The notes below the pieces were generated by a model. The model had not been told where the DNA came from. It ran no database searches and was given only the letters and a program-made list of their open reading frames with translations. Below, in pieces: positions 10,623 to 12,778 of a stretch of 64,000 nucleotides of DNA (the stretch's first letter is position 1; each line of letters starts with the position of its first letter). Origin of the DNA: Arthrobacter sp. MMS18-M83 (GTDB lineage Bacteria; Actinomycetota; Actinomycetes; Actinomycetales; Micrococcaceae). The stretch lies in assembly GCF_026683955.1 (NCBI RefSeq), contig NZ_CP113343.1:3162001-3226000 (forward strand), in the 5' to 3' direction. The position numbers and the translations under genes are program-made.

Positions 10623-10677
10623 GCTGCATCGTCTGGCCAACGGCTTCAGCAAGCAAGCGCCGCGGAAAGCAAGAGAA

Positions 10678-10713
10678 GAGCCCCGGACCATCTGGTCCGG
10701 GGCTCTCGCTTTG
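10678..10713. terminator. Intrinsic terminator between purC and the HTH-TPR gene
   Basis: GAGCCCCGGACCA (10678-10690) pairs exactly with TGGTCCGGGGCTC (10693-10705), followed by TCGCTTTG. It ends purC on the plus strand and, with no clear U-tract, may also end the convergent regulator transcript. Confidence 0.8.
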
Positions 10714-10724
10714 TAAGGGGACTC

Positions 10725-12011
10725 TTAGCTTGCGCGAGAAGACTTCGCGCTCTCGCCATGGCCTGACGCCGCCCGACGTTCCGCCAACCGGATTTCCAGG
10801 ACGGAGTCCATGGCCTGTTGGACGCGGTCGGCTGCTCCCGCAGCGGTGAAATCGCGTTGTGCTTCCTCGAGATGAACCAGGGCGTCCGCGTTTTCGCCAG
10901 CCGCTTTGAGCGCCTTCCCGAGCAGGAAGGCGACTTCGCCCGCGGTATGGCGCGCCAGGACATCGCGGTCCGCGTGGATTTCGCGCAGCTTGGTGATGGC
11001 GGCCGGGATGTCGCCCGTCAGGTAGAGCCAGCGGGCGCGGATAAAGGCAACCTCCAGCTGGTCCGTCTTGTTTCCGCCCACGATCGACAGAGCGAGTTCA
11101 GCCCGTTCGATGGCGGAGAGCGTCTCCGGCTCCACAATTCCCGAGGAGAGCCGGACCGCCGCAGATGCCTTGTTGAAGCGGGCCCAGAGCTCAATGTCAT
11201 TGGCGGGCGACAACAGTTTGGCGGCGCGCTCGTGGTGCTTGATGCCCTCGGCGTAGTCGTGCCGCATGAAGGCTACGTTTCCCACCACCCAGGCCACTTC
11301 GCCCGCGAGCTGGGACATCGAGTGATCGTCCATCTGGCTGTTCATGGCCTGGCAATACGTCCAGGCTTCGTCCAATCTGCCGCTCTCAGCCAGTGCCCCG
11401 ATCAGAGCCCGATGCGCCCCGATGATCAGGGTTGAGCCCTTGGGCAACTGCTCGGACAGCCTTACGGCTTCCATCGCGTGTTCGACGGCGGTGGCCAGCT
11501 GGCCTTGGCCGTGGCAGACCGCGGCAAGCATCTGCCGGGCACGGACTCCCAGGCCCGCGGATTCAGTGGCCATGGGGTGTTCCAGAAGATGCTGGATGAT
11601 CTGCTGGCATTCCTTCAGTTGCCCCTGCTTCATGAGGCACTCGGCCTGCATGTACGTCATGTTCCACCACGCGCTGGTGTTCTTTGCCTCAAGTGCGATC
11701 TGGGCTGCGGTCGACGCGTGGCTCGCGGCAAGAGGGTAGTCCCTCAAGTCCCACGCTTGCCTGGCATACAGCCCCGCCAGCACGTATTCGGCGTCGCTGA
11801 CGGATACGGGCTGGCTCCAGGCTTCCAGGGCTTTTGGTGCCAGCTCAAGGCGCCGGGCGAGTTCCTCAATGACCTCGGCTGTGGGTTCCCGGCGGCCGGT
11901 TTCAAGAAGTGAAATGTAGCTGGGTGAGTAAAGGTCTCTGCCCAATTCAGCCTGGGTCAGCCCACGTTCGAGCCGTTCGGCACGGAGCTTTTCTCCGAAT
12001 CCGTTCCCCAC
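10725..12011 (-). CDS. HTH (XRE) plus TPR regulator, candidate peptide-pheromone receptor
   Basis: 428 aa. An XRE-type helix-turn-helix lies at residues 8-62 (LRAERLERGLTQAELG, then YSPSYISLLETGRREPT). From about 70 to 415 the protein is a run of helical tetratricopeptide-like repeats (for example AGEVAWVVGNVAFMRHDYAE and ARWLYLTGDIPAAITKL). HTH plus C-terminal TPRs at about 430 aa is the architecture of RRNPPA regulators such as NprR, which bind short imported peptides. Start is GTG with a strong AGGAGGA 5 nt upstream. It is divergent from a secreted repeat-peptide gene 138 bp away. Architecture and context are seen; a peptide ligand is inference. An ordinary actinobacterial XRE-TPR regulator is the alternative. 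Confidence 0.85.
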   Translation of the reverse strand: MGNGFGEKLRAERLERGLTQAELGRDLYSPSYISLLETGRREPTAEVIEELARRLELAPKALEAWSQPVSVSDAEYVLAGLYARQAWDLRDYPLAASHASTAAQIALEAKNTSAWWNMTYMQAECLMKQGQLKECQQIIQHLLEHPMATESAGLGVRARQMLAAVCHGQGQLATAVEHAMEAVRLSEQLPKGSTLIIGAHRALIGALAESGRLDEAWTYCQAMNSQMDDHSMSQLAGEVAWVVGNVAFMRHDYAEGIKHHERAAKLLSPANDIELWARFNKASAAVRLSSGIVEPETLSAIERAELALSIVGGNKTDQLEVAFIRARWLYLTGDIPAAITKLREIHADRDVLARHTAGEVAFLLGKALKAAGENADALVHLEEAQRDFTAAGAADRVQQAMDSVLEIRLAERRAASGHGESAKSSRAS

Positions 12012-12029
12012 AGGTTCCTCCTAGAGGCT

Positions 12030-12098
12030 TGTCTTTGCGCTGTCTTTACGCGTACACCTTGACAGTAGCTGTGGAAAACATTTTACAATGAATGTCAA
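12030..12098. promoter_or_regulatory. Divergent promoter/operator region of the repeat-peptide locus
   Basis: On the plus strand TTGACA (12059-12064) and TACAAT (12084-12089), spacing 19, form the likely promoter of the peptide gene. Candidate operator elements are a tandem 11-bp repeat TGTCTTT(G/A)CGC at 12030-12040 and 12041-12051; a dyad ACAG-TAG-CTGT (12062-12072) between -35 and -10; ACATT-N8-AATGT (12078-12095) over the -10; and TGTCAA at 12093-12098, the reverse complement of the -35. The last would give the regulator gene a TTGACA on its own strand. Confidence 0.6.
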
Positions 12099-12149
12099 CA
12101 GGGACCGCGTAATTTCCGTAACGAATCCGACTCGCATTGAGGAAAAATT

Positions 12150-12407
12150 ATGTTGAAGAAGATTGCTGCAGCAGTCGCCCTGGCCGGCGCTCTTGCATGC
12201 TTCGCCGCGGCGCCAGCCGTGGTTTCCGCAGCCCCTATGGCAGACACCGTCAGCACGGTGCTCAGCATTGGTAATTGGCCCGACCCCATGAGTCTCGCCC
12301 AGGCAATCGGCAATTGGCCTGACCCGATGAGCGTCCCGCAGGCTATTGGTAATTGGCCTGATCCCATGATGGTGCCGCTGATCGGTAACTGGCCTGACCC
12401 CATGTAG
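12150..12407 (+). CDS. Secreted precursor with four identical IGNWPDPM repeats (candidate pheromone precursor)
   Basis: 85 aa. MLKK is followed by a hydrophobic stretch and VSA (residues 25-27), a good signal peptidase I site before residue 28. The exported part contains four copies of IGNWPDPM at residues 40-47, 53-60, 66-73 and 78-85, separated by spacers of 5, 5 and 4 residues (SLAQA, SVPQA, MVPL); the last copy ends the protein. All DNA differences among copies are silent. GAGG lies 7 nt before the ATG, a consensus promoter precedes it, and a terminator follows, so it is a free-standing expressed gene. Divergent from the HTH-TPR regulator. I recognise no described family; a repeated-peptide signal is the leading idea, a multi-core RiPP or wall-associated peptide the alternatives. 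Confidence 0.88.
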   Translation: MLKKIAAAVALAGALACFAAAPAVVSAAPMADTVSTVLSIGNWPDPMSLAQAIGNWPDPMSVPQAIGNWPDPMMVPLIGNWPDPM

Positions 12408-12470: not shown

Positions 12471-12513
12471 AATCCCCGGGGTGTAATAAACCAACACACC
12501 GGGGATTTCTTTT
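12471..12513 (+). terminator. Intrinsic terminator of the repeat-peptide gene
   Basis: AATCCCCGG (12471-12479) pairs with CCGGGGATT (12499-12507), extended imperfectly by GTGT/ACAC, and is followed by TCTTTT. It lies 64 nt after the stop codon and supports a monocistronic peptide mRNA. The rest of 12408-12665 shows no further gene. Confidence 0.8.
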
Positions 12514-12665
12514 GCGCGGGCAACCGCAGGCCGCTCCGGTAACTTCCGAGCCATTGCCGCCGGTTGTTAACAACACTTGTCTCTAAACCTCGGGCAGGCC
12601 TGGGAAAACCGGTCATCGGAATGTTTTGGCATTTCCTGGCCCGGCCTAAAACCTTGTTAAGTACA

Positions 12666-12701: not shown

Positions 12702-12778
<77 letters not shown>

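Follow-up and report, generated by a model that had tools for sequence, protein, structure and literature searches.

Peptide pheromone receptors of the RRNPPA family are proteins of 250-500 amino acids that join a helix-turn-helix (HTH) domain, absent from Rap, to a solenoid of tetratricopeptide repeats (TPRs) and respond to a short peptide from a small exported propeptide encoded next door; the peptide, of 5-10 residues, is re-imported and binds in the TPR groove. Rap, Rgg, NprR, PlcR, PrgX and AimR belong to this family. Circuits of this kind have so far been described mainly in Firmicutes and their phages. A divergent arrangement of receptor and peptide genes is common in the Rgg-SHP and ComR-XIP systems of streptococci, and XIP peptides are rich in tryptophan. 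Hidden Markov models run against 13,513 complete bacterial genomes placed RRNPPA genes in Firmicutes genera (PMC9765709), and RRNPP_detector was applied to Firmicutes and viruses (PMC10075063). Enzyme-made small molecules are given as the typical signals of Actinobacteria and oligopeptides as those of Firmicutes (PMC10075063). Here we analysed a stretch of 64,000 nucleotides from Arthrobacter sp. MMS18-M83 (contig NZ_CP113343.1, positions 3,162,001 to 3,226,000; hereafter the window), in which a gene for an HTH-TPR regulator lies divergent from a gene for a small precursor with four copies of the peptide IGNWPDPM. As argued below from comparative sequence analysis, this pair would constitute a cell-to-cell peptide pheromone circuit, a reading to which we assign a probability of about 0.85.

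The regulator, a predicted peptide receptor (10725..12011, minus strand), has 428 amino acids and a GTG start codon. Its HTH domain covers residues 5-64 (11820..11999, minus strand; Pfam HTH_31 2e-11, HTH_3 7e-11). Residues 71-426 (10734..11801, minus strand) are predicted to form a TPR helix-pair solenoid, according to TPR matches (TPR_12, 6e-10) and the helices of an AlphaFold model (mean predicted local distance difference test 87.5, predicted template modelling score 0.74). The protein therefore falls within the size range given for TPR-containing RRNPPA receptors (PMC10075063) and has the N-terminal HTH reported for all of them but Rap (PMC9765709). The precursor of 85 amino acids (12150..12407, plus strand), whose start codon is 138 bp from that of the regulator, agrees with the adjacent exported propeptide of 10-100 amino acids found in RRNPPA systems. 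It begins with ATG behind GAGG at 12139-12142, which resembles a ribosome-binding site by inspection. Its N-terminus, MLKKIAAAVALAGALACFAAAPAVVSA, appears by inspection to be a Sec-type signal peptide of about 28 residues (12150..12233, plus strand), with KK, a hydrophobic core and small residues at VSA-AP. The four copies of IGNWPDPM (12267..12290, 12306..12329, 12345..12368 and, at the C-terminus, 12381..12404, all on the plus strand) are identical in their eight residues and are encoded by four distinct DNA sequences. The two genes, their 138-bp spacing and the four exact peptide copies are as an earlier note on this DNA had described them. At E<=1 the precursor had no counterpart in Pfam or NCBIfam. 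A search with it as query gave 405 homologues at E<=10, of which 120 were listed.

All 121 genomes of the same genus (Arthrobacter in the wide sense) had matches to the regulator, those in G052, G072 and G092 being fragments only; overall 153 of 199 genomes matched, weakly so outside the genus. The DNA upstream of the gene was retrieved from 120 genomes of the genus, the regulator of G118 being the one whose locus was not among them. In all 120 loci a small divergent precursor was found 122-146 bp from the receptor start, and 119 of the precursors had at least one complete xGxWP[D/N]Px unit (one in 3, two in 68, three in 29, four in 19). The precursor with none (L119) has a degenerate SGNWPYPV. 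The commonest unit was IGNWPDPM in 51 precursors, VGNWPDPM in 40, IGNWPDPA in 8, TGNWPDPV in 6, VGNWPDPA and TGNWPDPM in 4 each, SGNWPNPM in 3, and TGIWPDPM, SGNWPDPM and TGNWPNPM in 1 each. All complete units were identical in 108 of the 116 multi-copy precursors; seven of the other eight have a final unit ending in V, and L030 has three V-type units and one I-type unit. In the 269 pairs of copies, which are not independent of each other, synonymous differences numbered 689 over about 1,230 sites and nonsynonymous ones 26 over about 5,226 sites; the spacers between copies were variable. Identical copies, synonymous divergence and variable spacers therefore indicate that the eight-residue peptide is what is conserved, with copies changing in concert; judged by these sequences, the precursor is conserved as a peptide and not as DNA.

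At the DNA level, the pattern GNWPDP[M/V] was found in 99 of 199 genomes. All of these belong to the genus; neither the other 43 genera drawn nor a reversed control gave a match. Among the matches listed, the peptide pattern came mostly from Arthrobacter, and also from Pseudarthrobacter, Paenarthrobacter and Sinomonas. A scan of named genomes for GNWPDP[M/V] gave at least 116 stretches, 80 of which were listed. The 24 loci checked comprised two of Sinomonas, 21 lone matches unlike such precursors, and a frame with two VGNWPDPM copies on a contig labelled Saccharimonadia (L172), which seems likely to be mis-binned Arthrobacter DNA.

The association was also evaluated with a strict finder, which requires a signal-peptide-like divergent open reading frame (ORF) containing xxxWP[NDHFK]. 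It was positive in 208 of 244 receptor loci (duplicates included), compared with 25 of 4,880 Markov shuffles. Among the regions upstream of window ORFs of at least 200 amino acids it was positive in 1 of 94, namely the IGNWPDPM precursor itself. These controls and the synonymous divergence of the copies ruled out a chance repeat ORF. A looser finder (217/244 receptor loci, 17/94 control ORFs, 263/4,880 shuffles) was permissive, and the strict motif was therefore used for the family tally. In this tally of 226 distinct receptors with fetched loci, a selection from ranked lists rather than a random sample, a strict Trp-Pro precursor adjoined 196 receptors: 121 of 121 HTH receptors of the genus, 44 of 44 TPR-only paralogues lacking the HTH, and 31 of 61 HTH receptors outside the genus. 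Loci L359, L366 and L381 were scored as lacking it after inspection.

The earlier note had suggested looking for co-variation, which was found: the first residue of the peptide changes with receptor residues 132 (here Leu; codon 11616..11618, minus strand) and 167 (here His; codon 11511..11513, minus strand). On a tree of 131 receptors (117 from the genus and 14 from another genus; L120, L121 and L122 were too short and omitted), peptide residue 1 changed eight times and residue 8 four times. All six changes of receptor residue 167 (p = 9e-7; 236 variable columns) and all five of residue 132 (p = 1e-5) fell on the eight residue-1 branches, followed by columns 127 (5 of 9 changes), 174 (6 of 23) and then 289. 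When the tree was built without residues 110-210, residue 1 had 12 events, and the top columns were still 167 (10 of 10 changes), 127 (9 of 13) and 132 (7 of 8). I-type peptides paired with L132/H167 in 73 of 73 receptors and V-type peptides with W132/Q167 in 41 of 42, the exception being L/Q; T- or S-type peptides paired with Q167 in 16 of 16, residue 132 being L or V. Read across sequences, these pairings look nearly like a code. Other genera gave separate support, V-type peptides occurring where residue 132 is Y or F (9/9) and I-type peptides where it is L (14/14). For peptide residue 8 the best column was 196, with three of its eight changes on the four events (p = 0.001). In the model, whose helices around these columns span residues 112-129, 132-144, 152-168, 172-186 and 194-210, columns 127, 132, 167 and 174 lie in helix pairs 2-3 and column 196 in pair 4, and none lies in the HTH.

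These data bear on the idea that the precursor is a secreted antimicrobial or a ribosomally synthesized and post-translationally modified peptide (RiPP), whose yield the repeats would boost, with the HTH-TPR protein as merely its regulator. One would not expect such a product to have a residue that changes in step with residues of the receptor. HTH-less TPR paralogues, moreover, have a precursor in all 44 loci fetched. Multi-core precursors are known among RiPPs, and a pair of ATP-binding cassette (ABC) exporter genes starts about 0.4 kb from the precursor. However, both of these genes lack a peptidase domain, and no modifying enzyme, peptidase domain or dedicated peptidase exporter was found among the four neighbours tested (purD, purC and the two ABC genes). 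We regard a product of either kind as improbable.

Between the two genes lies a 40-bp palindrome, TTGACA-N28-TGTCAA (12059..12098), which is predicted to be an operator from its conservation across loci. It contains TTGACA and TACAAT hexamers 19 nt apart that are promoter-like by inspection, and the intergenic core TTGACAGTnnCTGTGGAAAACATTTTACAATGnATGTCAAC is strongly conserved across the 120 loci of the genus. Searched as TTGAC-N30-GTCAA with constant spacing, the palindrome was present in 121 of 121 distinct HTH loci of the genus. Among the other HTH loci with a precursor it was present in 22 of 34 by the loose filter and 22 of 31 by the strict one. It was found in none of 27 HTH loci without a precursor (220 bp searched per locus) and none of 44 loci of TPR-only paralogues; shuffles gave 9 of 4,520. 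In the loci tested, this putative operator thus appears only at HTH receptors with an adjoining precursor. One-mismatch sites numbered nine in the genome, compared with three for a reversed control. The regulator-precursor pair may be autoregulated.

Small secreted repeat proteins are common, and 30 of the 226 receptors have no precursor neighbour, as would suit a cell-surface or structural peptide whose neighbour is unrelated. Motif-specific co-variation with the receptor, the operator pattern, and the recurrence of the precursor beside other receptors in several genera all speak against this explanation, and we consider it very improbable.

In the pheromone circuit that we propose, the precursor would be exported by the Sec pathway, and IGNWPDPM would be cut out and re-imported, to bind to the TPR solenoid of the regulator, steps on which the co-variation bears only indirectly. 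The regulator may sit on the palindrome over the precursor promoter and be switched by peptide binding, which could make the feedback depend on cell density. With several copies, a precursor would deliver a larger or more varied dose. Species of the I, V and T/S types would form separate pherotypes, read via receptor residues 132 and 167, and HTH-less paralogues with WW-type precursors may act in a Rap-like manner on proteins instead of DNA.

The peptide is encoded a second time in leaderless form. The genome of the window contains one further copy at G000:C1:3025744 (L131, L405), in an ORF of 20 codons (MQDHMRFIGNWPDPMRKGGK). Such ORFs start 77-91 nt 3' of a gene for a secreted-type Pro-rich protein ending in DPGSSPD (L136-L155, L390-L408). 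A search for this ending, made without the peptide motif, was positive in 19 of 120 genomes, all belonging to the genus (74 genomes of the genus were drawn). A leaderless peptide ORF followed the Pro-rich gene in 18 of the 19 loci, and its peptide type was that of the main precursor in 18 of 18 (12 I, 5 V and 1 T, the T case having two other types in addition). Some leaderless ORFs carry WW-type motifs, with IGNWPDPM alternating with IGWWPDAM. The ORF of L399 has VGNWPDPA, TGNWPDPM and TGNWPNHS together, a possible mixed or decoy signal. At L401, the sole Pro-rich locus without the peptide ORF, a secreted-type protein comes next, which we take to resemble a chaplin. Frames ending in MSSIGNWPDPM (L214, Sinomonas gamaensis) and MNRIGNWPDPM (L137, genome G002) directly before the stop codon may be tiny leaderless ORFs. 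Longer frames with an exact IGNWPDPM end were seen in L138, L150 and L153, where the Pro-rich ending was not found upstream.

The peptide could, given these ORFs, be a private cis-acting ligand, through which a cell reads the state of its own export or processing, or, by way of the leaderless ORFs, its own translation. The occurrence of same-pherotype leaderless ORFs behind 18 of 19 Pro-rich genes found without the motif fits this idea, as does the palindrome of the pair being the sole exact operator in the genome. However, the main precursor retains a signal-peptide-like N-terminus in the loci read, and divergence of pherotypes between species is expected of an intercellular signal. We consider a private ligand unlikely.

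Several observations weigh against the intercellular circuit or parts of it. Export of a Sec precursor does not explain the leaderless copies elsewhere in the genome. The palindrome is missing from 9 of 31 HTH receptors with a precursor outside the genus; no second exact palindrome exists in the genome, so no wider regulon was seen; and a promoter scan did not find a consensus promoter with 16-18 spacing. The receptor tree is weakly supported, with many weak forks, and independent contrasts of V against other types number two on starred branches and eight on all branches. On the two starred contrasts residue 167 goes along in an average of 1.7 and residue 132 in an average of 2.0, with no change of either in the opposite direction. 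With few independent contrasts on a weak tree, the co-variation p-values are therefore optimistic. The earlier note had named homologues without a repeat-peptide neighbour as evidence against its proposal. Within the genus the neighbour is present in 120 of 120 loci, but 30 of the 61 HTH receptors of other genera, and thus 30 of the 226 family receptors, lack it; these 30, all outside the genus, therefore count against a universal neighbour rule. As to kinship, the Pfam family RNPP_C scored 11.8 bits, short of its cut-off of 26.5. The modelled fold of the regulator is closer to MalT and APPBP2 than to any RRNPPA member according to VIA-align (APPBP2 26.9, MalT 26.3, chains of APC8 next; phage Rap with pheromone 23.5, RapF 22.8, NprR 21.8, AimR about 20). 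Rap, NprR, AimR and PlcR rank among its better structural matches.

Regulator homologues were found in 132 of 245 family genomes drawn (genus included), with peptide copy numbers ranging from 1 to 8. The motifs include IGNWPDPM in up to six copies (five in Sinomonas humi, L201), VGNWPDA in 4-6, VGDWPH in 6-8 and VGNWPDR in 5-8. TPR-only receptors have IGWWPN, TGWWPN (six copies) and PGWWPD (five copies). Paralogues without the HTH, each beside a divergent precursor of the xGWWPN type, were seen at L296, L272-L301 and L123-L128. L296 belongs to the genome of the window, where its precursor has five TGWWPN/VGWWPN units; a weak second match of the precursor search had hinted at it. At L125 a histidine kinase gene and a GGDEF-EAL gene flank a TPR-only receptor together with its precursor. 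Receptor P0302, from a different family of the order, has three copies of VGGSWPT in a divergent precursor 75 bp away; no repeat precursor was found at the G152 receptor or at one of two G195 receptors. The same layout occurs within the class at L432 (two DIEWP), L439 (three DISWP) and L440 (two DIGWP). A stricter filter, which missed the known L432 and L440, found a small secreted-type ORF with Cys-Cys or W..P in 10 of 29 remoter loci and none in 19. The L436 receptor as query gave matches in 56 of 335 genomes. Of 30 of these loci, including that of the query, 26 had a small secreted-type ORF in divergent orientation no more than 200 bp away (shuffles 241/3,000), with an exact Cys-Cys end in 20 (shuffles 0/3,000) and a Cys-Cys or W..P tail in 25 (shuffles 7/3,000). 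The HTH-TPR regulators at L451-L480, L414 and L416-L418, from other families within the class, adjoin secreted-type ORFs of 40-55 amino acids. We find it fairly likely that actinomycetes own a radiation of TPR pheromone receptors that is an undescribed counterpart of RRNPPA. Its secreted peptides would be divergently encoded, multi-copy with Trp-Pro in Micrococcaceae, where two receptor residues would make them readable, and Cys-Cys-ending in other families. It would further include HTH-less Rap-like offshoots beside cyclic di-GMP genes, and additional leaderless ORFs that supply the same pherotype.

The pair is flanked on the left by purD and purC, and on the right by a tRNA-Pro gene (12702-12778, minus strand), followed by the two ABC exporter genes. 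A terminator-like stem of 14 pairs lies 3' of the regulator (10676..10707, minus strand; stem scan). A GC-rich inverted repeat followed by T's lies 3' of the precursor (about 12471-12514); it is terminator-like by inspection and absent from the list of the stem scan.

If the circuit is real, a conserved peptide-receptor family that re-specifies itself in Arthrobacter, and apparently beyond, would break the division of signals between Actinobacteria and Firmicutes. Its peptide-receptor pairs, potentially orthogonal to one another, would form a ready-made set, and the co-evolution of receptor and ligand could be tested on two residues and peptides of eight residues.

The literature searched, with preprints and most subscription journals outside its scope, contained no description of the pair, as the earlier note had supposed; nor do the accessible parts of PMC10075063, PMC11343458, PMC12700828, PMC9765709 and PMC10518010 describe it. 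Firmicute pairs do not prove to be its nearest kin, its closest relatives being actinobacterial. Leaderless ORFs carry the peptide here, for example MSSIGNWPDPM of L214, as in the RopB leaderless communication peptide system (PMC10518010). However, the precursor in the window has a leader, the leadered precursor coexists with the leaderless ORFs, and the peptide often lies inside a longer one. SHP propeptides exit via PptAB, not Sec (PMC10075063), whereas the precursor here is of the Sec type by inspection, which differs from Sec-less export of a short hydrophobic peptide. The Rap-Phr systems of Bacillus phages phi3T and phi105 also combine a TPR receptor with more than one pheromone per precursor, with multiple putative pheromones "in several cases" (PMC11343458), whereas precursors of the genus normally hold two to four copies and those elsewhere as many as eight. 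The yeast alpha-factor precursor, likewise secreted with tandem identical pheromones, is an analogy only, being eukaryotic with a G protein-coupled receptor. A sequence search of the PDB aligned PlcR and ComR with no more than the HTH, with designed pentatricopeptide repeat and other repeat proteins in the top rows, and RRNPPA membership by sequence was not supported. The likeness to RRNPPA pairs drawn in the earlier note stands for the layout of HTH, TPRs and propeptide, and the modelled fold fits such kinship without proving it; it does not extend to RNPP_C, which stays below its cut-off, and other TPR proteins fit as well. Compared with RRNPPA systems, the pair shares an HTH, a TPR solenoid, an adjoining gene for a small exported propeptide and a short peptide, and differs in its occurrence in Actinobacteria, in the at least two copies per precursor usual in the genus, and in the Trp-Pro core of its peptide.
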